This document shows, piece by piece, positions 12,298 to 26,943 of a DNA stretch of 35,563 nucleotides. The translations under genes were made by a program, and so were the position numbers. The notes below the pieces were generated by a model. It saw only the letters and a program-made list of their open reading frames with translations. It was not told where the DNA came from and did not search any database. This DNA is from Clostridiaceae bacterium (GTDB lineage Bacteria; Bacillota; Clostridia; Oscillospirales; Acutalibacteraceae): NCBI GenBank assembly GCA_016288315.1, contig JAEEYU010000022.1, positions 1 to 35,563 on the forward strand, written 5' to 3'. Numbering within the stretch: the stretch's first letter is position 1; every line of letters starts with the position of its first letter.

Positions 12298-12439
12298 ACA
12301 AATACGCAAAATTTTGTTAATGTTTTTTTAAGAATACAAAAATTCACAAAACCGCATTGACGGGTGTATTATTTACAGAGCGCAAAAAACGGAAGGGGTG
12401 AGAAATATCGGAAACCCGGTTTTGCACGACGGCGGAGAT

Positions 12440-12910
12440 ATGGACAGCCGCTATATAGAAATCGCCGTTGACAGATACAGCAAGATGCTGTTCAGAATAT
12501 GTTTTGCGATTCTTGCCAACAAGGAAGACGCAGAAGACGCTGTTCAGGATACATTTATAAAATACTGCACCGAGGCGCCGACCTTCGGCAGCTGCGAGCA
12601 CGAAAAGGCGTGGCTTATCAGGGTGGCGACAAACATCAGCAAGAATATGTCGAGGTTCCGGGCAAGGCACAAATCCCTGAGTATGGAAGAGGTTGCCGAA
12701 ATAGGAGTTGACGACAAGGATTACGGAGTGTTTGAGTCGATAATGTCTTTGCCCGCCAAATACAAAATAGTTATGGATTTACATTATATAGAAGGTTACA
12801 CGGCAAGCGAGATTTCAATGATAACCGGAGTCAGTGCAGACGCAGTGCGCAAGCGCCTGCAGACGGGCAGAAACAAGCTGAGAAACGAACTTGAAAGGAG
12901 CGGTGACTAA
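12440..12910 (+). CDS. ECF-type RNA polymerase sigma factor
   Basis: The 156-residue protein has a sigma-70 region 2 (about residues 5-70: DRYSKMLFRICFAILANKED then AEDAVQDTFIKYCTEAP). Region 4 follows (about 105-150: LPAKYKIVMDLHYIEGYTAS then EISMITGVSADAVRKRLQ), with no region 1 or 3. It should direct RNA polymerase to envelope-stress-type promoters. The start is uncertain: ATG 12440 gives the usual family N-terminus but its GGAG is very close. A GTG at 12398 in the same frame has GGAAGGG directly against it. The stop overlaps the next gene by one base. It heads a chain of seven tightly spaced genes for lipid synthesis, so it probably controls them and itself. Confidence 0.87.
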   Translation: MDSRYIEIAVDRYSKMLFRICFAILANKEDAEDAVQDTFIKYCTEAPTFGSCEHEKAWLIRVATNISKNMSRFRARHKSLSMEEVAEIGVDDKDYGVFESIMSLPAKYKIVMDLHYIEGYTASEISMITGVSADAVRKRLQTGRNKLRNELERSGD

Positions 12911-13122
12911 TGACAATCAGACAATGTGTTGAGGAATACACAAGAATTATGGGCGGAATTGACATCACGCCGGAATTCAGGGCGCGGCTGACACAGCCGG
13001 CGGCCGGGGCGCAGGCACACGCCGCCTTCCCCGTCAGGACGGCGGTTGCCGCAACGGCGATTACGGGCACGGCAATAGCCGTTGCGCTCGGAATCAGAAG
13101 GCATGTGCGTAACAGAGCTTAA
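12910..13122 (+). CDS. 70-residue single-span membrane protein, candidate mini anti-sigma factor
   Basis: The ATG overlaps the stop codon of the sigma gene (TAATG), so translation is coupled. The protein has a soluble N-terminal part of about 38 residues (ECs VEEYTRIMGGIDITPEFRAR region). One hydrophobic span follows (about 40-60: VAATAITGTAIAVALG), with a basic tail RRHVRNRA. Genes directly after ECF sigma factors usually encode their membrane anti-sigma. Here the cytoplasmic part is far shorter than a normal anti-sigma domain and has no zinc motif. The anti-sigma role is therefore an inference from position and topology; I recognise no family. Confidence 0.7.
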   Translation: MTIRQCVEEYTRIMGGIDITPEFRARLTQPAAGAQAHAAFPVRTAVAATAITGTAIAVALGIRRHVRNRA

Positions 13123-13133
13123 AGGAGAAGAAT

Positions 13134-13727
13134 ATGTCTAAAAAATCACCTGTCATTTATAAAGGTCTGAGACCTCTTGCGGTTGCGGGCTTCACCCCGA
13201 TTATGAGACCCGAAATAATCGGCAAAGAGAACATACCGAAGAGCGGAAGAGTGATTCTCGCAGGCAACCACAAAAAGCCATATGATGTTTTTATGCTCTT
13301 CCTTTCAACAAGAAGATGCCTGCATTTTCTTGCAAAGATTGAGCTTTTCAAGGGGCCGCTCAATTATTTCTTCAAGGCGGCGGGCATAATTCCCGTTGAC
13401 CGTTCAAAGAAGAACCCTCAGGCGCTCGACGCGGCGAGGGACTACCTCAACAACGAGAGCGCAATAGCGATTTTTCCCGAAGGAACGACGAACAAGACGG
13501 ACGCGGTGCTGCTACCGTTCAAAATCGGAGCGGTCAAGATGGCGAGAGACACGGGAGCGCCGATTGTGCCGTTCACAATAAAAGGTCAGTATAAATTAAA
13601 GGGACCGAGACCGGAAATCAGGTTTTACGAGCCCTACTATGTCGGGGATGAGGACCTTGAAACTGAAAACGAAAAGTTCAGGAACTTCATTCTCGAAAAT
13701 CTAACCGACAAAGGAAACGCATCATGA
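13134..13727 (+). CDS. PlsC-type 1-acylglycerol-3-phosphate acyltransferase (copy 1)
   Basis: The 197-residue protein has the acyltransferase block I NHKKPYD (the H-x4-D catalytic pair) at about residue 43. Block III is FPEGTTNKTDAVLLPFKIGA at about 118 and block IV is APIVPFTIKG. It should transfer an acyl chain to lysophosphatidic acid or a related lyso-lipid at the inner membrane face. AAAGGAG lies seven bases upstream of the ATG. It follows the small membrane protein by 11 bases and overlaps the next gene by four bases (ATGA at 13724), so it belongs to the same operon. A paralogue is encoded at 15411. Confidence 0.9.
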   Translation: MSKKSPVIYKGLRPLAVAGFTPIMRPEIIGKENIPKSGRVILAGNHKKPYDVFMLFLSTRRCLHFLAKIELFKGPLNYFFKAAGIIPVDRSKKNPQALDAARDYLNNESAIAIFPEGTTNKTDAVLLPFKIGAVKMARDTGAPIVPFTIKGQYKLKGPRPEIRFYEPYYVGDEDLETENEKFRNFILENLTDKGNAS

Positions 13728-15496
13728 CATACAACGAAAAGACCAATGAACTCAACGTGCCGGACATTACAATGTATGACATGGTCCGCCGCCTTGCGTT
13801 AAAGCATCCGGAGGCGACCGCTTACGAATACCTGGGCACGACGGGAACATACAGGGAGCTTTTTGAGGAGATTGACAGATTTGCGAAATCATTTGCCGCC
13901 TGCGGAGTCAGGGCGGGCGACATTGTTACAATATGCATGCCGAACACACCCGAGGCGGTATTTGCGATATACGCGCTCAACAAAACGGGGGCGGCGGCAA
14001 ACGTGATTCATCCGCTTTCCGCGGCGGCGGAGATACGCAGATACATAAGCTCGGCAAACAGCAGGGTGCTTGTGTGCGTTGATATGTGCGTTGAGAAAAT
14101 AAGCGGAATCATTGACGAAACGGAGCTTGAAAAGGTTGTTGTGATAAGCCCGGCGGACTCCATGCCCGCCCTGCTTAAAACGGCTTACAGACTGAAAAGC
14201 AAAAAAGTAAAGCTGCCGGAAGACGGAAGATTCATTAACCTTAAAGATTTTATTGAGCTCGGCAGAAAAACGGTTCTGCCCCTGACACAGGCGGACCCCG
14301 CACTGCCTGCGGTAATTCTTCACAGCGGCGGCACGACGGGAACGCCCAAGGAAATCGTTCTGACAAACAGGGGCTTCAATTCGCTGGGCACTCAGGCGCT
14401 CATTGTGCTAAAGGATGTTACGGTAAACGACAGGGTGCTTGCCATTCTGCCCGTGTTCCACGCCTTCGGTCTTGGAGTATGCGTTCACGTCACATTCTGC
14501 CTGGGGGCGTGCTCGGTGCTTATTCCGAGGTTTGAGGCGGCGAAGTTCACGAAGCTTATGAAAAAGCACAGACCGTCAATGGTGTTCGGCGTGCCGACGC
14601 TTTATGAGGCGCTTATGAACGCGCCCGACAGCGACAAGCTTGACCTGTCGGACCTCAAGTATCTTGTAAGCGGCGGAGATTCGCTCAGCGAGACGCTTGA
14701 AAAACGCCTTAACAACTACCTTGAAAAGACGGGCGCTGGCATAAAGGTTATTCAGGGCTACGGGCTTACGGAGAGTCTGGGCGCCGTATGCCTCGCTACG
14801 GGCGACGGCTACAAGCCGGGCAGCATAGGCAGACCGCTGCCGGGCAACAGATTCTGCATTGTCGAGCCGGGCACCTGCAACATTCTGCCCACAGGCACCG
14901 ACGGCGAAATCTGCATAAACGGACCCACGCTTATGGCGGGCTACAGAAACAACGAGAAAGAGACAAAAGAGGTTCTTGTGCGGCACGGTGACGGCAGGGT
15001 GTGGCTGCATACGGGCGACATCGGCTGCATTGACGAAGACGGCTGCATATTCTACCGTCTGCGCCTCAAGAGGCTGATTATTTCATCCGGATACAACGTT
15101 TACCCGCAGCACATAGAGAGAATAATCGAACAGCACAGGGCGGTTGCAAAATGCACGGTAATCGGCATTCCGCACCCCTACAAGGTTGAGGTCGCAAAGG
15201 CATACATAGTTCTCAAAGAGAATTACAGAGAGAGCGAAGAGATAAAGTATTCAATAAGAGAGCACTGCAGAAAGAATCTTGCAAAATACAGTGTGCCCGC
15301 CGAGTTTGAATTCAGGGATAAAATACCGCAGACTCTGCTGGGCAAGACAGATTTCAATGCGCTCAGACAGGAGCACATGGCAAAACAGGCAAACGGAGAG
15401 AACAAAACAAATGGAAAGAACATCAAAGAAATCGGCAAACAGAAAGAAGAGGGATCCGGGAACGCTGGGGTTCAGGATGCTGGCACCTGCGCTTAA
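13724..15496 (+). CDS. AMP-forming acyl-CoA synthetase / acyl-adenylate ligase
   Basis: The 590-residue protein carries the full set of adenylate-forming motifs. The P-loop-like LHSGGTTGTPKEIVLTNRG is at about residues 198-216. GYGLTES is at about 345. LHTGDIGCIDEDGCIFYRLR is at about 427 and SGYNVYPQHIE is at about 450. The C-terminal catalytic lysine lies in PQTLLGKTDF at about 539. It activates a fatty or other carboxylic acid as acyl-AMP and probably passes it to CoA. Its place between two acyltransferases suggests that it supplies acyl groups to them. The last 40 residues are a Lys/Glu/Asn/Gly-rich tail outside the domain, encoded where the next gene begins (overlap up to 86 bases). The acyl substrate cannot be read from sequence. 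Confidence 0.9.
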   Translation: MTYNEKTNELNVPDITMYDMVRRLALKHPEATAYEYLGTTGTYRELFEEIDRFAKSFAACGVRAGDIVTICMPNTPEAVFAIYALNKTGAAANVIHPLSAAAEIRRYISSANSRVLVCVDMCVEKISGIIDETELEKVVVISPADSMPALLKTAYRLKSKKVKLPEDGRFINLKDFIELGRKTVLPLTQADPALPAVILHSGGTTGTPKEIVLTNRGFNSLGTQALIVLKDVTVNDRVLAILPVFHAFGLGVCVHVTFCLGACSVLIPRFEAAKFTKLMKKHRPSMVFGVPTLYEALMNAPDSDKLDLSDLKYLVSGGDSLSETLEKRLNNYLEKTGAGIKVIQGYGLTESLGAVCLATGDGYKPGSIGRPLPGNRFCIVEPGTCNILPTGTDGEICINGPTLMAGYRNNEKETKEVLVRHGDGRVWLHTGDIGCIDEDGCIFYRLRLKRLIISSGYNVYPQHIERIIEQHRAVAKCTVIGIPHPYKVEVAKAYIVLKENYRESEEIKYSIREHCRKNLAKYSVPAEFEFRDKIPQTLLGKTDFNALRQEHMAKQANGENKTNGKNIKEIGKQKEEGSGNAGVQDAGTCA

Positions 15497-16061
15497 GCCC
15501 GTTTTTAAACTCTGGTATAATCCGAAAATAATCGGCAGGGAGAATATTCCCGAAAAGGGAGCGCTCGTCATAGCGTGCAACCATATTCACGTTTATGACC
15601 AGTGCCTGACGATAATCTCGACAAAGCGCCCGATTAACTATATGGCGAAAAAGGAGTATTTTGAAGGAAAGCTCCGCGGCTTTTTCAGGTTTGTGGGCTG
15701 CATACCCGTAAACCGCAACGGCAGAGACACCGACGCTGTTGCGAGCGCGCTTACGGTGCTGCGCAGAGACGGGGCAGTGGGAATCTTCCCCGAGGGCACG
15801 AGGAACAAAACGGACGCCTTTTTGCTGCCGTTCAAATTCGGAGCGGTTTCGATGGCAAAAAAGACGGGCGCGATGGTTCTGCCCGCCGCCGTTACCGGCG
15901 ATTATGAATTCCGCAGCAAAAACCTTACCGTGCGTTTCGGGAAGCCCTTCAGCGTTGAGAATATGACTGCGGCGCAGGCCAACGAGAAGCTTTTCAATGA
16001 GGTTGCGGCGCTTATGAATATGAACCTTGAAAGCAACCGCAGCTGCAAAAAAACAGGATGA
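15411..16061 (+). CDS. PlsC-type acyltransferase (copy 2)
   Basis: The protein has block I NHIHVYD (H-x4-D), FPEGTRNKTDAFLLPFKFGA and a closing VLPAAVTGDYEF strand. It is clearly homologous to the acyltransferase encoded at 13134 but diverged, so the two may serve different positions or lipids. Two starts are possible. ATG 15411 (GGAGAG upstream, 216 residues, basic leader KKSANRKKRD) overlaps the ligase gene by 86 bases. ATG 15477 overlaps by 20 bases and matches the shorter paralogue better. I give 15411 but rate the choice even. The gene ends 18 bases before the activase gene, within the same operon. Confidence 0.88.
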   Translation: MERTSKKSANRKKRDPGTLGFRMLAPALKPVFKLWYNPKIIGRENIPEKGALVIACNHIHVYDQCLTIISTKRPINYMAKKEYFEGKLRGFFRFVGCIPVNRNGRDTDAVASALTVLRRDGAVGIFPEGTRNKTDAFLLPFKFGAVSMAKKTGAMVLPAAVTGDYEFRSKNLTVRFGKPFSVENMTAAQANEKLFNEVAALMNMNLESNRSCKKTG

Positions 16062-16079
16062 ATTGAGGAGAACGGAAAA

Positions 16080-18983
16080 ATGAACATAGGTCTTGATGTG
16101 GGTTCAACCACATTGAAATGCGTAGCCGTTGACGACAGCGGCGAAATTGTTTACAAAAACTATCTGCGGCATTTTTCGCAGATAGCGACAAAGTCAGCAG
16201 AGATGCTCAGCGATATTATCAGCAGGCGCCCCGAATTTGCCGGCGCCTGCGTTGCCGTTTCCGGCTCGGCCGGTATGGGCTTTGCACAGCAGCTTGAACT
16301 GCCGTTTGTGCAGGAGGTTTACGCCTCGAGAACAGCGGTTAAAAAGCTTATTCCCGACACAGACGCAGTTATAGAGCTGGGCGGCGAGGACGCGAAAATT
16401 CTCTTTTTCACGGGCGGAACGGAAGTGCGTATGAACGGCTCGTGCGCAGGCGGAACGGGCGCATTCATAGACCAGATGGCATCGCTGCTCGGCGTTGACG
16501 TTGAAGACATGAACGGTCTTGCCGAACAGAGCGAAAAAACCTACACAATCGCTTCGCGCTGCGGTGTTTTTGCAAAATCGGACATTCAGCCGCTGCTCAA
16601 TCAGGGCGCCCGCAAAAGCGACGTTGCGGCAAGCATATTCAAGGCGGTTGTCAACCAGACGGTTGCGGGACTTTCGCAGGGCAGGGAGATAAAAGGCAAG
16701 GTGGTTTACCTGGGCGGTCCGCTCTCCTTCCTTCCCGAACTGCGCAAAAGCTTTGACGAGACTCTGGGGCTTACGGGAGTATGCCCCGAAAACTCGCTTT
16801 ACTATGTTGCTCTCGGCGCGGCTTTTTCACCCGACGCTCAGCCGATGGATTTAAAAGAAATAATCGGGAAAATAAGCTCATACGAATCATCGGCGGGCTA
16901 CATAAGCTGTGAGCCGCTTTTTGAAAACGAGGATGAATATAAAGAATTCACCGCAAGGCACGAAAAGGACACCGTCAGGACGGTTGACAGCATTGTGCCC
17001 GGCGAGGAGCTTTTTCTCGGCATAGATGCGGGCTCGACTACAATCAAGTGCGCGGTCATCAACAAAAACAGGGAAATAGTTTTTCAGAAATATATGTCAA
17101 ACAGCGGCAATCCTGTGACTGCCGTTAAGAATTTTATGACGGAGTTCTACACCCTTCACCCGGGTGTTGAAATCACATATTCCGCCGTTACGGGCTACGG
17201 CGAGGAGATAATCAAAAACGCCTTCGGCATAGACACGGGCATTGTTGAGACAATAGCGCACTACACTGCCGCAAAGCATTTTAAAAACGATGTTGATTTC
17301 ATAATCGACATAGGCGGTCAGGACATCAAGTGCTTTAAAATCAGGAACGGCGCCATAGACAACATCTTCCTCAACGAAGCGTGCTCGTCGGGCTGCGGCT
17401 CCTTCCTGCAGACCTTTGCCGCCGCCTGGGATTACGGCATTGCGGACTTTGCCCGCCTCGGCCTATTTGCCGACAAGCCGGTTGACCTGGGCTCGCGCTG
17501 CACGGTGTTTATGAACTCCTCGGTAAAGCAGGCGCAGAAGGACGGCGCAAGCATTGAGAACATCTCGGCAGGTCTTTCGATAAGCGTTGTAAAGAACGCT
17601 CTTTACAAGGTTATAAGGGCGTCGGGCGCGGATGACCTGGGCAGAAACATTGTTGTTCAGGGCGGAACATTTTTAAACGACGCCGTTTTGCGCGCGTTTG
17701 AAAAGGAAATCGGCAGGAACGTTGTGCGCCCCGACATCTCGGGCCTTATGGGCGCTTACGGAGCGGCAATCTACGCCATGGAACACAAAAAGGGCGGGAG
17801 CACCTGCATAAAAGAGGATGAACTGAAAACCTTTGTTCACGAGGTTAAGGCGATTACCTGCAACGGCTGCCCGAACCACTGCCGTCTGACCGTAAACACA
17901 TTTGCAAACGGCAGAAAATACATAGGCGGCAACAGGTGCAGCAAGCCCGTTTCGGAAGCAAACGCCAAAGACATTTACAACCTTTACGATTATAAAAAAG
18001 AACTGCTCGCAAAATACAGACCCGTGCCCGGCAGGAGGGGAAAAATCGGTATTCCGATGGGACTCAACATGTATGAGCTGCTCCCGTTCTGGCACACGTT
18101 TTTCACGGCTCTCGGCTATGAGGTTGTAACCTCGCCGGAATCAACAAGGGCGCTCTACCTGCTCGGTCAGCACACTATTCCGTCAGACACGGTCTGCTAC
18201 CCGGCAAAGCTTATGCACGGACATATCGAGTATCTTATCAATCAGGGCATAAAAGACATTTTCTACCCCTGCATGACCTACAACATTGACGAAGGTCTGG
18301 GCGACAACAACTACAACTGCCCCGTCGTTGCCTATTACCCCGAGGTTATACGCTCGAACGTCAGGGCGGAAGACCTGAATCTTATATGGGACTATGTGGG
18401 TATTCACCGCAGGAAGGATTTTACGCCGAGAATACGCGCCATAATCAACAGACGGCTCGGCTTTGTGACTCCGAAGGAGATTGAAAAAGCGGTCAAAGCG
18501 GCTTACGAGGAGTATGATTCATATATGAATCTCATCCGCAAAAAGGGCGACGAATACCTTGACCTGGCAAAGAAGAGGAACCTGCCGGTTATTGTGCTTT
18601 GCGGAAGACCCTACCACCTTGACAGCGAGATAAACCACGGCATTGACAAGCTTATCTGCGAATGCGGTGCGGTGCTTGTTACGGAGGATTCCATAAGCGA
18701 CAAGATGCAGAAGTTTGCAACGAACGTTCTTGACCAGTGGACCTACCAGTCACGTCTTTATGCGGCGGCGAAATACATTGCCGACTCGGGCGACAGCAGG
18801 ATAAACCTTGTTCAGCTCGTGTCGTTCGGCTGCGGAACGGACGCCATAACAACAGATGAGGTTCGCAGCATTCTTGAGAGGAAAAACAGAATTTACACGC
18901 AGATTAAAATTGACGAGATAACAAACCTCGGTGCAGTCAAAATCAGATTGAGAAGCCTTTTTGCGGCTTTGGAACAGGAGTAA
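16080..18983 (+). CDS. plsA: Two-domain BadF/BcrA-type activase with DUF2229 domain, plasmalogen synthase subunit PlsA-like
   Basis: The 967-residue protein contains two tandem ASKHA ATPase domains of the 2-hydroxyacyl-CoA dehydratase activator type. Domain 1 is at about residues 2-265 (GLDVGSTTLKCV). Domain 2 is at about 310-580 (GIDAGSTTIKCAV). Each keeps the two cysteines that bridge a 4Fe-4S cluster in HgdC: NGSCAGGTG plus ASRCGVF in the first, NEACSSGCG plus GSRCTVF in the second. A cysteine cluster (CNGCPNHC, about 593) and a DUF2229 region with PSDTVCYPAKL follow. This layout matches PlsA of the clostridial plasmalogen operon, which turns ester lipids into vinyl-ether lipids under anoxia. 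Symbol assigned by architecture and context, not by alignment. Confidence 0.78.
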   Translation: MNIGLDVGSTTLKCVAVDDSGEIVYKNYLRHFSQIATKSAEMLSDIISRRPEFAGACVAVSGSAGMGFAQQLELPFVQEVYASRTAVKKLIPDTDAVIELGGEDAKILFFTGGTEVRMNGSCAGGTGAFIDQMASLLGVDVEDMNGLAEQSEKTYTIASRCGVFAKSDIQPLLNQGARKSDVAASIFKAVVNQTVAGLSQGREIKGKVVYLGGPLSFLPELRKSFDETLGLTGVCPENSLYYVALGAAFSPDAQPMDLKEIIGKISSYESSAGYISCEPLFENEDEYKEFTARHEKDTVRTVDSIVPGEELFLGIDAGSTTIKCAVINKNREIVFQKYMSNSGNPVTAVKNFMTEFYTLHPGVEITYSAVTGYGEEIIKNAFGIDTGIVETIAHYTAAKHFKNDVDFIIDIGGQDIKCFKIRNGAIDNIFLNEACSSGCGSFLQTFAAAWDYGIADFARLGLFADKPVDLGSRCTVFMNSSVKQAQKDGASIENISAGLSISVVKNALYKVIRASGADDLGRNIVVQGGTFLNDAVLRAFEKEIGRNVVRPDISGLMGAYGAAIYAMEHKKGGSTCIKEDELKTFVHEVKAITCNGCPNHCRLTVNTFANGRKYIGGNRCSKPVSEANAKDIYNLYDYKKELLAKYRPVPGRRGKIGIPMGLNMYELLPFWHTFFTALGYEVVTSPESTRALYLLGQHTIPSDTVCYPAKLMHGHIEYLINQGIKDIFYPCMTYNIDEGLGDNNYNCPVVAYYPEVIRSNVRAEDLNLIWDYVGIHRRKDFTPRIRAIINRRLGFVTPKEIEKAVKAAYEEYDSYMNLIRKKGDEYLDLAKKRNLPVIVLCGRPYHLDSEINHGIDKLICECGAVLVTEDSISDKMQKFATNVLDQWTYQSRLYAAAKYIADSGDSRINLVQLVSFGCGTDAITTDEVRSILERKNRIYTQIKIDEITNLGAVKIRLRSLFAALEQE
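18976..18980 (+). promoter_or_regulatory. Ribosome binding site deciding the start of the plsR-like gene
   Basis: AGGAG sits six bases before ATG 18987 and overlaps the last codons of the upstream gene. The junction reads GAG-TAA-GAG-ATG in a single frame, so this site shows the second protein is separately initiated rather than a simple broken end. Confidence 0.75.
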
Positions 18984-18986
18984 GAG

Positions 18987-20264
18987 ATGAATACGGAAGG
19001 CAGAGTTATATTCACAAAGGAAATGAAGAGGGATTACACCATACTTGTTCCCAACATGGCGGAAATCCATTTTGAACTGCTGGCGCGTGTTCTCAGGCAG
19101 CACGGCTACAAGGCGGAGCTGCTGCGCACAAACGGAAGGGAGATTGTTGACGAGGGGCTCAAATACGTTCACAACGACACCTGCTACCCGGCGCTGCTTG
19201 TCATAGGTCAGCTAATAAACGCGCTCAACAGCGGCAGATACGACCCGCACAAGACCGCTCTGCTCATAACGCAGACGGGCGGCGGCTGCAGAGCTTCAAA
19301 TTATATTCATCTGCTGAGAAAGGCGCTCGTCAAGGCGGGCTACGGCTATGTGCCGGTAATCTCGCTCAACCTTTCGGGGCTTGAAAAGAACCCCGGCTTT
19401 AAGTTCACGCCCGCCATGGGTATGAAGTTCCTTTCGTGCCTTATCTACGGCGACCTGATTATGCTGCTCAAAAACCAGGTTAAGCCCTATGAAATCAACG
19501 AGGGAGAGACGGACGCTCTTGTTGACAGATGGATAGCAAAGCTTGTGCGCTTTTTCGGGCAGAACAAGGGCTACGACTATTTTTCGGCAAAGAAGATTAT
19601 GCCTAAAATCACGAAGGATTTTGCCGAGATTCCCGTCAACAAAACGGATAAAATCAAGGTGGGCATAGTCGGTGAAATATATGTAAAATACTCCCCGCTC
19701 GCGAACAACCACCTTGAGGATTTTCTTATTTCGCAGGGCTGCGAGCCGAATGTGCCCGGTCTTATGGGCTTCGTGTTTTTCAAAACAGACAACCGTCTTG
19801 AGGATATAAAGCTCTACGGCGGCAAAAAACTCAAAAAGCTTGTTATGAAAGCGGTTATGTGGTATATGATGCACGTTGAGGCGTGTATTGAACAGGCGGC
19901 AAAGGCATACGGCGATTTTGTCGCGCCCACGCCATACAGACATCTGCGCGAGCTCATAAAGCCCGTTATGGGCTACGGCTGCAAGATGGGCGAGGGCTGG
20001 TTGCTGACGGCGGAGATGATGGAGCTTATTGAAAGCGGATACGGCAACATAGTGTGCGCCCAGCCGTTCGGCTGCCTGCCCAACCATATAGTCGGCAAGG
20101 GAATGGTGAGAAAGCTCAGGGAGATTTACCCCGACTCGAATATTGTTCCCATCGATTACGACCCGGGCGCCACAAAGGTAAACCAGGAGAACAGAATAAA
20201 GCTTATGCTTGCAGTGGCAAAGGAAAACGCCTGCGCTGCCGACATAAAAAAATTCGTTTCGTGA
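18987..20264 (+). CDS. plsR: 2-hydroxyacyl-CoA dehydratase (HgdB/DUF2229-like) protein, plasmalogen operon PlsR-like
   Basis: The 425-residue protein matches the C-terminal, dehydratase-like part of large activase-dehydratase proteins. It has conserved cysteines in HNDTCYPALLVIGQ, TQTGGGCRASNYIHL, VMGYGCKMGEGWL and VCAQPFGCLPNHIVGKG, probably ligands for iron-sulfur clusters. With the upstream protein it reproduces the two-gene plsA-plsR arrangement of Clostridium perfringens; other anaerobes carry both parts as one chain. It starts three bases after the upstream stop and in the same frame. The activase would reduce this subunit at the cost of ATP. A different 2-hydroxyacyl substrate is possible, but the surrounding acyltransferases favour lipids. 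Symbol assigned by architecture. Confidence 0.75.
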   Translation: MNTEGRVIFTKEMKRDYTILVPNMAEIHFELLARVLRQHGYKAELLRTNGREIVDEGLKYVHNDTCYPALLVIGQLINALNSGRYDPHKTALLITQTGGGCRASNYIHLLRKALVKAGYGYVPVISLNLSGLEKNPGFKFTPAMGMKFLSCLIYGDLIMLLKNQVKPYEINEGETDALVDRWIAKLVRFFGQNKGYDYFSAKKIMPKITKDFAEIPVNKTDKIKVGIVGEIYVKYSPLANNHLEDFLISQGCEPNVPGLMGFVFFKTDNRLEDIKLYGGKKLKKLVMKAVMWYMMHVEACIEQAAKAYGDFVAPTPYRHLRELIKPVMGYGCKMGEGWLLTAEMMELIESGYGNIVCAQPFGCLPNHIVGKGMVRKLREIYPDSNIVPIDYDPGATKVNQENRIKLMLAVAKENACAADIKKFVS

Positions 20265-20330: not shown

Positions 20331-20455
20331 GAAGCAAGCAGAAAAGCGTTGCGTTGACTGCCTGCTGACGATCTCCGGAGAATTCCGACAAGAGCGGATG
20401 CCGAAGGTGCAAAGGGGTTCAGCCCCCTAATCTCTCAGGCAAAAGGACGGAGGTA
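20331..20455 (+). ncRNA. Glycine riboswitch, single aptamer with degenerate upstream element
   Basis: The conserved glycine aptamer core is present: GCCGAAGGTGCAAA at 20400-20413, a small GC hairpin, then CTCTCAGGCAAAAGGAC from 20432. It is closed by the pairing of CTCC/GGAGA (20373-20383) with TCTC and GGAG near 20431-20453. Upstream, GCAAGCAG near 20335 can pair with CTGCCTGC near 20358-20365 with one mismatch, consistent with a 5' ghost aptamer of a singlet riboswitch. It precedes an intrinsic terminator and a glycine/alanine symporter, so it controls uptake at transcription level. Confidence 0.9.
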
Positions 20456-20478
20456 TTGAAAAGCGTTTTTGCGTTTTG

Positions 20479-20510
20479 AGTCAGCGGGAGACCGCTGACT
20501 TTTCTTTTTT
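20479..20510 (+). terminator. Riboswitch expression-platform terminator
   Basis: A 9-bp stem, AGTCAGCGG (20479-20487) with CCGCTGACT (20492-20500), has a GAGA tetraloop and is followed by TTTCTTTTTT. It lies between the aptamer and the symporter start at 20533. GCTGAC in the leader (20364-20369) can pair with GTCAGC of the 5' arm, a possible antiterminator. Confidence 0.88.
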
Positions 20511-20532
20511 GCGCGGACGGGAAGGGTATTTT

Positions 20533-22053
20533 ATGTTTGAAAAAATCTTAGCCGTAATCGAAAACGTAAACAACGTCATAAACGGCATTGTATGGGGCTG
20601 GCCCGTGATTATTCTTATTCTCGGCACAGGTCTTATACTGAGCATCAGAACAAGGTTTTTGCAGGTGAGGCATTTCGGGGAATCGCTCAACACGACGATT
20701 ATTCCCACGCTTAAAAGTCTCGGTAAAAAGAAGGAGAAGGACAGCAGGGTAAACTCCGTCTCGCAGTTTGAAGCGTTCTCGACCGCCATTTCAGGCACGG
20801 TGGGAACGGGCAACATAGTGGGCGTTGTTTCCGCCATACTCACGGGCGGACCGGGCGCAGTGTTCTGGATGTGGGTTTCGGCGTTTTTCGGCATGGTCAC
20901 AAACTATGCGGAGAACGTGCTCGGTCTTTATTTCAGAAAAAAAGACAAAAACGGCAACCTCTCGGGCGGCGCGTTCTACTACATCGCCTACGGTCTTAAA
21001 TGGAAGTGGCTCGGCTACCTCGCGGCAGTATTCTGCATGCTTGCCGCCGTCGGTATGAGCGGCGTTCAGACAAACAAGATTTCGGGCACTCTTGCGGAGG
21101 CGGCCTCGCGTATGGCGCAGGTGCAGAACACGGGAACAATCAAGTTCATAATAGGAATTATTGTGGCGGTTATGACTGCGGTGGTCATCATCGGCGGAAT
21201 CAAACGCATAGGCAAGGTGGCATCAATGCTTGTGCCGTTTATGTCGCTTATGTTTATTGTGATGGCGGTTATTTCGATAGCGATTCATTTCAGACACATT
21301 CCCGGCGCATTTGCGCTCATATTCTCAAAGGCGTTCAATTTCAGATCGGTCGGCGGCGGCATTCTCGGCTACGGCTTTTCGCAGGTTATAAGAAAAGGTA
21401 TGGCGAGGGGCGTTTTCTCAAACGAGGCGGGTCTCGGCTCCTCCGTTATAGCGCACTCGGCATCCGAAACAAGAGAGCCCGTCAAGCAGGGTCTCTGGGG
21501 CGTTTTCGAGGTGTTCTTTGACACGTTCATCATCTGCACGCTCACTGCCGTTATGTTCCTGACAAATTTTGACCTCAGCGCACTCTCTGCCGACATGGAA
21601 GACAGCGTTATGTCGATGAATATGTTCTCTGACACCTTCGGCGGCTTCGGAACGGCTGTTTTCTCAATTATTCTGCCGCTGTTTGCGTTCACGACGGTTA
21701 TTGCGTGGTCCTACTACGGCGAGAAGGCGGTTGAATTCGTCTTCGGCGGTTTAAGCGAAAAAGGGCGCAAAGCTGCGGTTGTAATATTCAAGATTCTCTA
21801 CGTTGTGCTTATTGCCGTTTCATCGCTCATCAAGAGCGACCTTGTGTGGGCGGTTGACGACACGTTCAACGGGCTTATGGCGCTGCCGAACCTTATCTGC
21901 GTAATAGCGCTCAGCGGACTTGTCGCGAAAATCACGGCAAACTATTTTGCAAGGAAGAAGGGCGAGAAGGTTGAGCCGATGCTCTCCGCCTACCCCGAAA
22001 TAAACGAGGAGTTCAAAGAGGATATTCTGACATCAAACGAAGAGATGAAATAA
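20533..22053 (+). CDS. Sodium:alanine/glycine symporter, AGCS family
   Basis: The 506-residue protein has about ten membrane segments and the AGCS signature FSTAISGTVGTGNIVGVVSA, followed by GPGAVFWMWVSAFFGM. It also has a later GVFSNEAGLGSSVIAHS motif. It imports glycine or alanine with sodium at the cytoplasmic membrane. The glycine riboswitch directly upstream points to glycine as a relevant substrate. The start at 20533 is preferred because GGAAGGG lies seven bases upstream; in-frame codons further upstream fall inside the riboswitch terminator. It is monocistronic, ending at a hairpin terminator 7 bases after the stop. Confidence 0.93.
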   Translation: MFEKILAVIENVNNVINGIVWGWPVIILILGTGLILSIRTRFLQVRHFGESLNTTIIPTLKSLGKKKEKDSRVNSVSQFEAFSTAISGTVGTGNIVGVVSAILTGGPGAVFWMWVSAFFGMVTNYAENVLGLYFRKKDKNGNLSGGAFYYIAYGLKWKWLGYLAAVFCMLAAVGMSGVQTNKISGTLAEAASRMAQVQNTGTIKFIIGIIVAVMTAVVIIGGIKRIGKVASMLVPFMSLMFIVMAVISIAIHFRHIPGAFALIFSKAFNFRSVGGGILGYGFSQVIRKGMARGVFSNEAGLGSSVIAHSASETREPVKQGLWGVFEVFFDTFIICTLTAVMFLTNFDLSALSADMEDSVMSMNMFSDTFGGFGTAVFSIILPLFAFTTVIAWSYYGEKAVEFVFGGLSEKGRKAAVVIFKILYVVLIAVSSLIKSDLVWAVDDTFNGLMALPNLICVIALSGLVAKITANYFARKKGEKVEPMLSAYPEINEEFKEDILTSNEEMK

Positions 22054-22125: not shown

Positions 22126-22202
22126 CAGGGTAAAGTCCACGCTGCGCAGGTAGTCATCTGCATCCCTCTGTGTTATGCTTGCCTTGCAAGGAGGCGAAAG
22201 CT

Positions 22203-22796
22203 TTGAATAATTATGTGACGGGAGCTGTTATAAAAAAGCTCCGCGAACAAAAGGGTATGACCCAGGCGCAGCTGGCGGAAAAGATATTTGTCAGCGCAAA
22301 GACTGTGAGCAAATGGGAGACGGGGCAGGGCTTCCCCGACATCAGTCTGCTTGAATCGCTCGCTAAGGCGATAGACATCTCGGTAATCGAGCTGTTAAAC
22401 GGCGAGGATATCCGCAACTCCAACAGGTCGGCAAACATCATAAGAGGCAGGTTCTATGTATGCCCCGTGTGCGGAAATGTGATTCACGCAAACGGCGAGG
22501 CGGTTGTGAGCTGCTGCGGAATAACCCTTCCGCCCGCAGAGCCCGAGGAGGACGACGGCGGGCACGCAATCACGGTTGAAGGCGTTGAGGATGAATACTT
22601 TGTTTCGGTAAACCACCCGATGACGAAGGAGCATTATATCTCGTTTATTGCCGCCGTGTCTGAGAGCGGGGTTAATATAGTCAAGATGTATCCCGAAGGG
22701 AATGCCGAAGCGAGGTTTAAAAAGAACCGTGTGAGATTTTTTTATGTTTACTGCAACAGGCACGGACTTTTCCGCCTTGACATGCGAAAGCGGTGA
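22203..22796 (+). CDS. XRE-type HTH protein fused to a desulfoferrodoxin/superoxide reductase-like domain
   Basis: A TTG start at 22203 is set by AAGGAGG eight bases upstream; the ATG at 22170 has no ribosome site. Of 197 residues, about 5-66 form a Cro/C1-type HTH (KKLREQKGMTQAQLAEKIFV and VSKWETGQGFPDISLLESLA). Residues 85-195 resemble desulfoferrodoxin. The rubredoxin-like center I has Cys87, Cys90, Cys104 and Cys105. The superoxide-reducing center II has His121, His138, His144, Cys184 and His187. The Glu-Lys pair that normally precedes the first His is Gly-Gly here. It may be a redox-sensing regulator, an enzyme, or both. DNA target and activity are not readable from sequence. Confidence 0.82.
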   Translation: MNNYVTGAVIKKLREQKGMTQAQLAEKIFVSAKTVSKWETGQGFPDISLLESLAKAIDISVIELLNGEDIRNSNRSANIIRGRFYVCPVCGNVIHANGEAVVSCCGITLPPAEPEEDDGGHAITVEGVEDEYFVSVNHPMTKEHYISFIAAVSESGVNIVKMYPEGNAEARFKKNRVRFFYVYCNRHGLFRLDMRKR

Positions 22797-23786: not shown

Positions 23787-25172
23787 TTAATTGCCGCTGA
23801 TTTTTTCAAACAGGGTTTTTATAAGCCCGATGACGAGCTTAAAGGGTCTGAGAAGGGTGCCGAAAATGTCGTTGCGCCCGTAGATTCTGTAAGCGCTGTA
23901 GCCCGAGTCCGCCTTGTAAACAAGCTGGTATGTTCTTGCCGAGACAGTGCCGTCGTCATTTTTCACACCGACGGTAAGATTGGCTCCGATAAGCGGGGGA
24001 TAGGAAATTGAAAGAACGGGACCGTCCATTGAATAGTTCTTTACCGGCAGACCGTTTACAAAAACATAATCAACCTTTTCAAAACGGTCAAGGTCAACGG
24101 TTATGCCCTCTTTTGCCGTTTTGTCGGGAAGGACGGAGAGAATCTGACGCACCATATAGTCGTAGCCCTTCTGCGTGGGATGGGTGGCGGTGAAGGTGTT
24201 GTCTTTGAAATCGCCGAGAAGGGACCAGTCGTTTTCGGTTGCCTGAACCTCGGTGTTTGCAACATCGGCATAAAGAACGTTGAATTCCTTTGCCCATTTT
24301 TCATACTGAAGGTTCATCTTTGTTGTAAGACCGGAGAAAAGCGAGCCGAGAGGGATTACCGTTTCATCGGTGAGGGTGAGCTCGTTGAGAAGGTTGAAGG
24401 AGCCGACCATAACTATTGTGGCGTCGGGGTTGAGCTCCTGAATCTTTCTGATTACGGAAGGATAGTATTGCTTCCAATAATTGAAGCCGAAGTTTATCTC
24501 TCTTATCGCGCTTGAAACGAGGTTTAAAATTCCTTCGGGGCTGCTTAAATCGAAGCTTGCGCCGCCTGCGAGACTGCCGCCGTTTGAAGCGATTCTGTAA
24601 ACGCGGTAGAACACGTCGCACATACCGAGCTCGACGGTGATGAGATCCGCCTTTTTGATGACTTCGATTATGTTGCCGCACTTGCCGCATTCGCCCTCAA
24701 CATAGACCTCGCCCTCTCTTGTGCCGTCAAAGGAACCCTCCCAGCCGAAATAGCGGAGCATTTCATCGTAATACTGGTAGTCAAGCGCGGTGTCGGTGAA
24801 ATTGTCTTCAATTCCGAGCAGGTCCATAACCATACCGACGGTCATGCCGGGGTAGCACAGAGGCCAGAAGTTGCCGCTTGAATCCGTCATATCGTCGGGG
24901 GCGTTGCAGCCGACTGCCTGCGAAATCTGATTGGGAACGGCTCCGACAACGTTGCGAAGGAAATACATATCATACTGACCGCCCTCGTATTCGTCGTTGT
25001 TGATGTAGAAGCCCTCGGCGCCGCAGCCCCTGAAAAGACTGTCGCCTATGGCGAGGTAGCCGCCCTCTTTGCCGTATTGTCTGACCGTTTTTGCGTTTGC
25101 GGAAAAGCCCGTGAATGCAACGCAGGAGATGATTACGGCAACACAGAGAATAACCGAAATGATTTTTTTCAT
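23787..25172 (-). CDS. Secreted SGNH/GDSL-family hydrolase
   Basis: The 461-residue protein has a signal peptide (hydrophobic residues 4-21, cleavage near SANA at 27). Block I follows with AIGDSLFRGCG (Ser45). DLITVELGMCDVFYRV is the block III-like region, where the usual GxND Asn is changed. The C-terminal catalytic segment is TATHPTQKGYDYM, whose His is followed by a normal block V context. It is an extracellular esterase or lipase of unknown substrate. The start at 25172 has AAGGAGG upstream. It follows the GH3-family gene by 25 bases and so is its operon partner. The C-terminus carries a beta domain and a hydrophobic end. Confidence 0.83.
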   Translation of the reverse strand: MKKIISVILCVAVIISCVAFTGFSANAKTVRQYGKEGGYLAIGDSLFRGCGAEGFYINNDEYEGGQYDMYFLRNVVGAVPNQISQAVGCNAPDDMTDSSGNFWPLCYPGMTVGMVMDLLGIEDNFTDTALDYQYYDEMLRYFGWEGSFDGTREGEVYVEGECGKCGNIIEVIKKADLITVELGMCDVFYRVYRIASNGGSLAGGASFDLSSPEGILNLVSSAIREINFGFNYWKQYYPSVIRKIQELNPDATIVMVGSFNLLNELTLTDETVIPLGSLFSGLTTKMNLQYEKWAKEFNVLYADVANTEVQATENDWSLLGDFKDNTFTATHPTQKGYDYMVRQILSVLPDKTAKEGITVDLDRFEKVDYVFVNGLPVKNYSMDGPVLSISYPPLIGANLTVGVKNDDGTVSARTYQLVYKADSGYSAYRIYGRNDIFGTLLRPFKLVIGLIKTLFEKISGN

Positions 25173-25197
25173 AATTCTGCCTCCTTGTGCGGAATTG

Positions 25198-26871
25198 TCA
25201 GTTTTGTATTCTTGAGAGGAAAAACTCTTTTTTCTCTTCATTGTCAAGTGAGTGAACGGGTTTTATCTGCGCGGCGGACGCCCCGAGCGACACGCATCTT
25301 TCAGCCCACTGCCTGTGGGTGCCGGGAATCTGGCGGCGGACGGCGAGTTTGCCGATAAAGCCCTTTTCTCTCTGAGACGGGTAGCGCTTGTTGCACTGCC
25401 CCATATAGTCTTCAGTTTCATCAACGCAGGCGGCAAGGTCAACGCCGCTTTCATCTTCATACAGCAGAACATATCTGCCGGGCACCACGCTGTCATCCTG
25501 ATAAAACAGCCAGTTCTCGATTTTTATGCCGTGCGCCTTTGCAAGCATTTCGACGGTGTTGCGGGCATCTTCCTCGCTGAACTTTTCGCCCGCTATGTTG
25601 AACATCTGCCCCTTGCGGAACACGAAAGAGATGAGGGGGCAGCTGTTGCGGAAACCCCTGACCTCGAGCACATCCTTGAGGCGGTAGCGGTAGAGACCCG
25701 CCTGATTTGTTATGAGAATCTCATATTTTTCGCCTGCCCGCAGGTCGCCTATGCCGAGAACCTCTTCGTTTTCATCGCCGTAGCGGATGAATTCATAATA
25801 GCAGCTGTCGGTCAGAAGCTGCATGTCGGTATTTTCAAGCTCATAACAGGCGGCAACGAGCGCCTCGGAAGCGCCGTAGATTGAAAAATCGAGAGGTATT
25901 CCGTCTGCAAGCGAGCGGATGTATTCAGACGAAGGTCTGAAGGAGGCGTTGCCGATGCTGCTTATGACGGTCATATTAGGCCAGATTCTTTTGAAGAGCG
26001 TTTTGTCAAAGCCCTTTTCAAACTGCGCGCGCAGATATTGCGCACGGCAGGGCATCGGTTTTATGCGCTTTGAAAGATACTTGCGCAGTTCCGGCTTCAT
26101 TTTTATGCTTTTGTCAATTGTGCCTTTTTCAATGTCGTCAACAATCAGACGCCAGTTGTTTTGAAGGTAGGCGACCTGACTGACATTTATGCTGAAAAAT
26201 ACGGAGAATATGAACGAGGCGTCTTCATCCTGCAGGGCGAAGCGGTAGATGTTATAGACATAATCGCCGTCGTGAACATCAAAAAGATTTTTGCCTGGAA
26301 CGGTGAGAATGAACGGGTATAATCTGCCGTATTGCCTTGCGCCTATTTCGGCTATGTTGCTGCATATCATACCGTTTGGCAGGCACTCATTGGTGGCGGG
26401 CGAGAGGAAGATTCCCCTGCCGGACTTATATTTTTTGCCCTGCTTTTCGAGCCGGAGCGCTCCGAGAGCCAGCGCCCTCGTCCAGGTGTAGCGGACGTAA
26501 GCTTTGAGCGAAGCGGCAGTTGCGGGAATGTATTTGGGAACGCCCGACGAGCCGGAGGTTCGCGAAAAGCCGAGAACACGGGAGGAGACGAGAACGTTTT
26601 TTTCGCCGTTTTTGATTCTTTCAATATAAGCGGCGTAATCCTCATAGCCGGATACGGGCACGTTTTTTCTGAAATCTTCGGGAGTTTTTATGCCGGCAAA
26701 ATTGTGAAGGATGCCGAATTCAGTGTTTTTGTTTGATTTTATGATTTTTCTGAGCAGTTCAAGGTTTTCCGCCTCGGGGCTGTATGAAGATTTTTCCATA
26801 CGGCGCAGGTTCTGTTTGCCTTTTGCAACCATTAATTTCATTGCAAACCCGCTCAATGCTTTTCTGAACAT
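25198..26871 (-). CDS. GH3-family acyl-adenylating enzyme (GH3 auxin-responsive family)
   Basis: The 557-residue protein has the adenylate-binding TSGSSGVPKYIPAT motif (about residues 105-118), a YGASEALVA segment, and NQAGLYRYRLKDVLEVRGF, all hallmarks of the GH3 fold. Plant GH3 enzymes join amino acids to jasmonate or auxin through acyl-AMP. Bacterial relatives are common, but their substrates are mostly unknown. The start at 26871 is supported by GAGGT about nine bases upstream and the promoter at 26944-26972. It is followed by a secreted SGNH hydrolase, so the pair may make and remove an acyl modification; this is inference. Confidence 0.85.
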   Translation of the reverse strand: MFRKALSGFAMKLMVAKGKQNLRRMEKSSYSPEAENLELLRKIIKSNKNTEFGILHNFAGIKTPEDFRKNVPVSGYEDYAAYIERIKNGEKNVLVSSRVLGFSRTSGSSGVPKYIPATAASLKAYVRYTWTRALALGALRLEKQGKKYKSGRGIFLSPATNECLPNGMICSNIAEIGARQYGRLYPFILTVPGKNLFDVHDGDYVYNIYRFALQDEDASFIFSVFFSINVSQVAYLQNNWRLIVDDIEKGTIDKSIKMKPELRKYLSKRIKPMPCRAQYLRAQFEKGFDKTLFKRIWPNMTVISSIGNASFRPSSEYIRSLADGIPLDFSIYGASEALVAACYELENTDMQLLTDSCYYEFIRYGDENEEVLGIGDLRAGEKYEILITNQAGLYRYRLKDVLEVRGFRNSCPLISFVFRKGQMFNIAGEKFSEEDARNTVEMLAKAHGIKIENWLFYQDDSVVPGRYVLLYEDESGVDLAACVDETEDYMGQCNKRYPSQREKGFIGKLAVRRQIPGTHRQWAERCVSLGASAAQIKPVHSLDNEEKKEFFLSRIQN

Positions 26872-26943
26872 TGTAAAAGACCTCGGTGATAATCTGAAAC
26901 GGGGATGAACGGCAGTGCGGGCGAACACCCCGATATTAACTAT

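Follow-up and report, generated by a model that had tools for sequence, protein, structure and literature searches.

The subject of this report is a set of seven genes in a 35,563-nucleotide stretch of DNA from a Clostridiaceae bacterium (contig JAEEYU010000022.1 of assembly GCA_016288315.1), called the window in what follows, which is contig 31 of an assembly of 2.15 Mb that is 77.7% complete. The open reading frames (ORFs) lie within positions 12440-20264, all on the + strand and with gaps between neighbours of at most 18 nt. They encode an extracytoplasmic function (ECF) sigma factor, a protein of 70 residues, two PlsC acyltransferases, an acyl ligase that forms adenosine monophosphate (AMP), and a protein pair of the PlsA/PlsR type. 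The original prediction, made from the letters of the window, had described such a set of genes packed with overlaps or gaps below 20 nt, and the strand, the spacing and the Pfam families all agree with it. The features are the following.

12310..12342 (limits approximate), + strand: A/T-rich conserved element 5' of the sigma promoter, from the alignment of the regions upstream of 30 sigma genes; the same block lies 5' of plsA in one related genome (G015)
12344..12372, + strand: predicted ECF-type promoter TCACA-N16-TGTATTAT, ending 67 nt 5' of the sigma ATG
12440..12910, + strand: ECF sigma factor with sigma2 and sigma4 domains (Pfam Sigma70_r2, E 9.8e-11; Sigma70_r4_2, E 3.9e-10), a member of the lipid-operon sigma clade
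12910..13122, + strand: 70-residue protein, read as a truncated anti-sigma; no Pfam family; 1-nt overlap with the sigma gene, whose stop shares one base with this start (TAATG)
13134..13727, + strand: PlsC1 acyltransferase, after a gap of 11 nt (Pfam Acyltransferase, E 5.7e-28; HX4D and FPEGT motifs by inspection)
13724..15496, + strand: AMP-forming acyl ligase of the long-chain fatty-acid ligase type, overlapping PlsC1 by 4 nt (Pfam AMP-binding, E 5.2e-80, plus the C-terminal domain)
ATG 15411 or 15477 to 16061, + strand: PlsC2 acyltransferase, overlapping the ligase by 86 or 20 nt (Pfam Acyltransferase, E 4e-24)
16080..18983, + strand: PlsA-type protein with activase domain 1, activase domain 2 and a DUF2229 reductase domain, after a gap of 18 nt (two BcrAD_BadFG stretches and DUF2229 in Pfam)
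18987..20264, + strand: PlsR-type protein, a reductase subunit resembling 2-hydroxyacyl-coenzyme A (CoA) dehydratases, after a gap of 3 nt (weak Pfam DUF2229, below cut-off)

The start of the sigma gene is uncertain, as GTG 12398 is an alternative to ATG 12440; by inspection, the nearest relatives have a similar in-frame stretch 5' of the sigma ATG (12398-12440 in the window), behind a purine-rich ribosome site. A simple scan of 12440-20264 returned nine terminator-like matches on the + strand, with stems of 5-7 pairs and every one of them intragenic (18 in the region on both strands, against 12.0 ± 3.3 in shuffles), and also five weak sigma-70-like matches within the operon on the same strand, each scoring 9/12 (16 in the region, against 7.6 ± 2.9 in shuffles). 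Judged from the sequence, the seven genes are probably transcribed as one operon, inside which, in view of these five matches, a further promoter may lie.

The link between the sigma gene and the plsA-plsR pair (plsAR) was followed in 45 genomes of the genus, among them that of the window, and 32 of the 45 gave a match to PlsA. The match was a PlsA-type protein in 30 of them, 28 belonging to the main clade (68-100% identity) and two to another PlsA clade (57-59%), and an isolated activase of 33-34% identity in the other two. A sigma gene lies 5' of plsAR, on the same strand and within 3.7 kb, in 23 of the 28 main-clade genomes, and the genes between sigma and plsA are PlsC-ligase-PlsC in four, two PlsC in 12, one PlsC in one, and neither in six. 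Two more genomes are cut by contig ends (G131 and G185); in G131, one contig begins in PlsC2-plsA-plsR and another ends in sigma-small gene-PlsC-ligase, which would fit the order of the window. The same seven genes in the same order recur in G132 and G183, and G184 shows the first six, its contig ending near the end of plsA. The arrangement is no product of chance or of assembly, and the tie between a sigma factor and plasmalogen-type genes, put forward from the window by itself, holds up across the genus.

Among 137 PlsA-like loci outside the genus (109 of them with at least 3 kb upstream, several from the same genome or from genomes present in two collections, so that they are not 137 species, and two, L091 and L092, of an outgroup type of ~1300 residues), a profile of the genus sigmas, which could miss remote ECFs, found at E < 1e-3 a single ECF gene within 5 kb on the same strand, and this one is unrelated. 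It is found in a related Clostridiales genome (L170:2260-3416), where a different ECF gene stands just 5' of plsA together with what appears by inspection to be a zinc-finger-type anti-sigma. As a case of the same system it was rejected, owing to its score of 24.7 bits to the sigma profile and its type of anti-sigma, and also to a terminator-like hairpin seen by inspection before plsA.

Regarding the acyltransferases, PlsC1 matches PDB 5kym, a 1-acyl-sn-glycerol-3-phosphate acyltransferase (E 2.1e-13), and two of the three PF01553 proteins in the window's assembly are those of this operon. The top NCBIfam models for the ligase are long-chain-fatty-acid--CoA ligases, with all 25 models shown falling under their cut-offs, and among solved structures 4-coumarate and fatty-acyl CoA ligases rank first. 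The original prediction had counted this ligase as part of the sigma-plasmalogen unit, which is so in the window, but across the genus the gene is optional; as an essential part it was rejected, being missing from 19 of the 23 sigma-linked operons. In 12 genomes of the genus, a separate operon of sigma, small gene, ligase and PlsC2 is led by a related sigma; nine of these genomes also have the sigma-plsAR operon, and the PlsA search found no PlsA in the other three (G127, G143 and G179). One further genome (G152) has sigma-small gene-PlsC-ligase-PlsC located away from its PlsA, which belongs to the other PlsA clade. At the order level, tblastn found none of the other operon proteins adjoining the ligase homologues (39-44% identity, L122-L126). 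The cargo of these operons is modular, and what unites its variants is the acylation of glycerolipids and the formation of ethers rather than the ligase.

The sigma factor of the window has sigma2 and sigma4 domains only, as the definition of an ECF requires. In a midpoint-rooted tree of 56 rows (L117 and L118 were left out, having too few filled columns), the sigmas of lipid operons form a single clade (support 98/90), which splits into a plsAR/PlsC type (95/88) and a ligase-PlsC type (100/97). Their sister group (96/95; joint fork 86/88, not starred) has ordinary-sized anti-sigmas downstream, proteins of 189-371 residues that are taken as anti-sigmas from their place and shape, Pfam having matched neither of the two scanned. 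By inspection, the 70-residue protein consists of an N-terminal segment and one hydrophobic helix followed by a short basic tail, with no extracytoplasmic part. A profile was built from 23 such small proteins and compared with the gene calls of 20 loci. It matches all 13 full-length anti-sigmas beside the sister sigmas near their N-terminus (E 8.6e-7 to 3.6e-3; next-best protein 0.012), and no scanned protein but L249, a member of the profile set, scores better than these; for candidates beside more distant sigmas (L265-L268), the match is weak (E 0.15 at best) or missing. With the same profile, a frame is found behind 38/38 lipid-operon sigma genes, at E 8.1e-13 or lower and with seven loci outside the profile set among them (L149-L152, L155, L250, L251), and behind 13/13 sister sigma genes (E 4.4e-7 to 2.7e-3), i.e., behind 51/51 overall. 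Because of this homology to the N-termini of the sister anti-sigmas, the small proteins are read as anti-sigmas without a sensor, cut down to their N-terminal segment, with one helix left in most of them. The 70-residue product, earlier described as a membrane protein, resembles a truncated anti-sigma instead.

When the regions upstream of 30 sigma genes are aligned, they share a block that ends in TCACA...TGT. The pattern TCAC[AC]-N16-[CT]GTNT is present within 300 nt upstream of 43 of the 51 sigma genes in the two clades (0.005 expected per region), namely 24/26 of the plsAR/PlsC type, 9/12 of the ligase type and 10/13 of the sister type. The first letter of its -10 part is C in 10/10 matched sister-type genes and T in 32/33 matched lipid-operon genes, with L136 as the exception. 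The eight genes missed are L152, which has 82 nt upstream only; L143, L115 and L120, which have TCACG or TCACT in its place; L252, L253 and L256, which sit directly behind another gene; and L251. Elsewhere in those loci the pattern is rare, with 71 places in 1.63 Mb of strand, including those before the 43 genes. The narrower form TCACA-N16-TGTNTTWT has a single exact match in the window's genome, the sigma promoter (reversed control, 1), and 45 matches in 28 genomes, 15 of them at sigma genes and the other 30 to be set against 14 for the reversed control; further targets beyond the sigma genes may exist.

In the genome G015 (locus L033), the sigma-small gene-PlsC-ligase-PlsC cassette is missing from the 340 nt 5' of plsA, and plsA directly follows the promoter block, whose spacer has 15 bases against the usual 16. 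This rearrangement ties the promoter to plsAR and is what would be expected if that promoter drives these genes. The search of this genome (97% complete) found no close sigma, the best match being 35%, which suggests that the promoter there is used by another sigma.

The two last genes of the operon had been assigned to the PlsA/PlsR type, and both sequence identities and tree support this assignment, setting the pair apart from the other activase/dehydratase proteins tested. The pair has the PlsA/PlsR architecture, in which PlsA joins two activase domains to a DUF2229 reductase domain and a second reductase subunit is adjacent or fused, and PlsA cysteines 122/161 and 435/474 are invariant in 15/15 sequences; by the HgdC motifs, we take them to be the iron-sulfur ligands of both activase domains. 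Over its full length, PlsA is 44-52% identical to proteins of Listeria, Acetoanaerobium, Fusobacterium and Collinsella and 38% to that of Haliovirga, compared with 24-28% for activase proteins of Paraclostridium and Monoglobus. In a tree of 39 rows, made with a quick method, with long branches flagged and including neither the Clostridium perfringens PlsA nor a proven Ger sequence, the window protein clusters with those of Listeria, Collinsella, Acetoanaerobium and Fusobacterium, and not with other activase proteins; the Paraclostridium protein stands apart along with two family proteins of ~1300 residues. Among the best 80 of 582 matches, the closest named ones are gut Clostridia, namely Ruminococcaceae bacterium UBA1236 (79%), a goat-colon Clostridia genome (71%), Neglectibacter sp. 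X58 (68%) and Clostridium sporosphaeroides (66%); Ruminococcus flavefaciens MC2020 stands at 55%. PlsR had no relative among PDB sequences by phmmer or profile search, and in a comparison of folds 2-hydroxyacyl-CoA dehydratase and benzoyl-CoA reductase came closest; the viral contigs scanned with PlsA contained no relative.

As a side observation, the plsA-plsR pair also occurs in two loci of archaeal metagenome-assembled genomes of Methanocorpusculaceae/Methanocorpusculum (L211:9974-14187 and L215:6662-10892). In the archaeal family around G186 (G186-G218), a PlsA with 57-59% identity to that of the window is found in 16/33 genomes, two of the proteins being partial. The neighbours on the L211 and L215 contigs are an archaeal-type alanyl-tRNA synthetase (AlaRS), RadA, Orc1 and a geranylgeranyl-reductase family protein, so that a binning error is an unlikely source of these two loci; both genomes also have one PF01553 protein. 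No paper treating Methanocorpusculum and plasmalogens together was found in the open-access literature searched, and it is surprising that a methanogen should have an ester-reducing lipid enzyme of bacterial type.

Collectively, we think it likely that the locus works as an ECF sigma operon that regulates itself and remodels membrane glycerolipids. This reading builds on gene content, protein families, the sigma-plsAR link in one genus, the promoter pattern and the homology of the truncated anti-sigma; from these we infer that the genes are co-transcribed and that the sigma recognises the promoter and is inhibited by the small protein, as well as what the enzymes make and which physiological role they have. 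The ECF sigma would transcribe its own operon, itself included, from the TCAC[AC]-N16-[CT]GTNT promoter, and the tiny sensorless anti-sigma would restrain it, from the membrane or the cytoplasm, and set its threshold. The ligase would activate fatty acids, and the two PlsC enzymes would put acyl chains on (lyso)glycerophospholipids, together supplying or repairing acyl chains. PlsA/PlsR, as an iron-sulfur activase driven by adenosine triphosphate and a dehydratase-type reductase, would reduce sn-1 esters to ethers.

Several observations weigh against this reading. The sigma gene is not upstream of plsAR in three of the 28 genomes (G015, G129 and G178), so that the link is not obligatory; the ligase lies inside the plsAR operon in only four of the 23 linked genomes (that of the window, G132, G183 and G184); and G153 has sigma-small gene-PlsC-PlsC with no PlsA match. 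By inspection, the small protein has no hydrophobic helix in several relatives (the clade of L138-L148), which weakens a role in membrane sensing. The promoter pattern was set after the alignment had been viewed, and the 51 genes are related rather than independent events. In addition, the -35 part of the window promoter is TCAC(A), not the AAC given for ECFs (PMC8103513; this and the papers below are cited by accession, for the portions of their text available to us), and the promoter also scores as sigma-70-like (TTCACA-18-TATTAT, 10/12). The original features of ECFs are said in the same source to include a co-transcribed anti-sigma, positive autoregulation and an AAC (-35)/CGT (-10) promoter, the promoter and the autoregulation being early criteria that were later dropped from the definition; the -10 trio is TGT in the window and CGT in the matched sister genes, in partial agreement with AAC/CGT.

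These points bear on two alternatives that concern the regulators. A housekeeping sigma could drive the operon, the ECF gene being merely carried along and regulating other genes or hardly anything; the sigma-70-like score would fit this, as would G015, which keeps the promoter block in the absence of a close sigma and with a spacer whose loss of one base suits a housekeeping sigma. The matched sister-group genes, however, have CGT at the same spacing, and 7/10 aligned ligase-operon promoters read TGTTTC or TGTATC there, which is not TATAAT-like, and we consider this alternative quite unlikely. It would be comparably improbable that the small downstream proteins are membrane peptides with another role. 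Their length of about 46-79 residues as called, below the average of 101 ± 33 residues for class I anti-sigma domains (PMC7406223), the lack of a helix in some of them, and the weak or missing matches beside more distant sigmas would suit such peptides, but the small genes occupy the usual place of a cognate anti-sigma, and their profile ranks all 13 sister anti-sigmas above every protein scanned but L249. An extracytoplasmic part follows the helix in the 13 sister proteins, but anti-sigmas in general need not have one: soluble proteins make up about 35% of class I (PMC7406223).

The other alternatives concern the enzyme pair. Telling PlsA from the alkyl-ether enzyme Ger is a matter in which a definite assignment from primary sequence is currently impossible (PMC13274423), and the pair could be Ger-like and make saturated alkyl ethers instead of plasmalogens. 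The two activase domains of the window protein, which the same paper ties to Ger as a hypothesis, would speak for this, but the proteins of Listeria, Fusobacterium, Collinsella and Haliovirga likewise show two activase stretches, and Act1 and Act2 are labelled in expressed plasmalogen synthases (PMC12838417, Fig. 8 legend). Since the domain count for these reasons does not separate Ger from PlsA, two activase domains were rejected as proof of Ger. As Listeria, a reported plasmalogen maker (PMC9702350), groups with the window in the tree, which holds no proven Ger sequence, we regard a Ger-like pair as rather unlikely. A pair whose substrate is a soluble 2-hydroxyacyl-CoA, or something else again, and whose place among lipid genes is incidental would agree with the catalytic diversity of the wider family and with the closest folds; we hold this to be very unlikely, given the identities to the Listeria group as against Paraclostridium and Monoglobus, the separate clade of the Paraclostridium protein, and the PlsC genes that stand between sigma and plsA in 17 of the 23 sigma-linked genomes. 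In the preferred reading, PlsA/PlsR is an ether-forming pair whose products would most likely be vinyl ethers (plasmalogens) rather than alkyl ethers.

A bolder extension of the operon reading, to which we give little credence for now, is that gut Clostridia of one lineage converted an ECF system for sensing the envelope into a homeostat for membrane lipids. The anti-sigma would have shed its sensor, and through the helix or short peptide that is left the sigma would answer directly to bilayer conditions or to a precursor of lipids; it would set the ratio of ester to (vinyl-)ether lipids by driving acyl activation, acyl transfer and ester reduction in exchangeable sets. In any case, the genus shows a sigma lineage whose anti-sigma has seemingly lost its sensor, with a -10 promoter element differing in step. 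The regulation of plasmalogen synthesis in anaerobes was named an open question in 2020 (PMC7884928), and a sigma-led operon would offer a genetic handle on how anaerobes control plasmalogen-type lipids; if the control lies with an ECF sigma of its own and a compact promoter, two small genes and one reporter would be enough to test it.

The remainder of the window has features of other kinds. A glycine riboswitch (20365-20460) and then an AgcS sodium:amino-acid symporter (20476-22053) lie 3' of the operon and are probably a unit separate from it; a terminator-like hairpin (20478-20501) overlaps the start of the listed AgcS ORF, so that the real start is probably ATG 20533. Further on are a helix-turn-helix protein whose C-terminus partly matches desulfoferrodoxin (22170-22796) and, on the - strand at 23787-26928, an ORF for a GDSL-type lipase that adjoins and slightly overlaps one of the GH3 family.

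The enzymes of this locus are known, and no description of its ECF-led arrangement with a putative sensorless anti-sigma was found in the open-access literature searched. Aas of Escherichia coli, an acyltransferase fused to an acyl-acyl carrier protein ligase, acylates lysophospholipids. As in the window, a PlsC domain is paired there with an acyl-activating ligase, and both PlsC proteins hit the Aas-type models PRK08633 and PRK06814, with PlsC2 hitting PRK08043 as well, every hit lying far under cut-off; unlike Aas, the window has separate genes, two PlsC copies and a coupling to PlsA/PlsR. The plsA-plsR genes of C. perfringens (CPE1195/CPE1194) and the fused plsA of Enterococcus, Lactococcus and Listeria likewise combine two activase with two reductase domains, and the size is similar, 4,185 bp here against the 4,199-bp fragment cloned from C. 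perfringens (PMC12838417). Unlike those loci, an ECF sigma stands in front here, accompanied in many relatives by acyltransferase genes. A TetR/AcrR-like gene is described upstream of plsA in E. faecalis and other facultative anaerobes, strict anaerobes being without it (PMC9702350), and the product of the gene in front of the Collinsella plsA is TetR-like in its C-terminal domain.

Class I anti-sigmas and the short class II CnrY are the nearest counterparts of the small proteins, which are likewise encoded beside an ECF gene, have an N-terminal segment in common with longer anti-sigmas and usually show one membrane helix (by inspection); what differs is their length of about 46-79 residues, the lack of a sensor domain and, in the clade of L138-L148, that of the helix too. 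In the open-access literature, which leaves subscription papers such as Jackson et al. 2021 outside, the only link between ECFs and plasmalogens found was the myxobacterial one; the available portions of PMC7884928, PMC6362236 and PMC10601643 discuss plasmalogens and other sigma factors, and none of them ties a sigma to plsA. In Myxococcus xanthus, the ECF sigma CarQ and its anti-sigma CarR are, like the proteins described here, linked to plasmalogens, by way of the oxygen-dependent desaturase CarF, which is needed to inactivate the anti-sigma, the freed sigma then driving carotenoid genes (PMC9131029). Unlike that system, in the window the sigma gene itself heads the operon of an oxygen-independent ester reductase, and the putative anti-sigma is a fragment.

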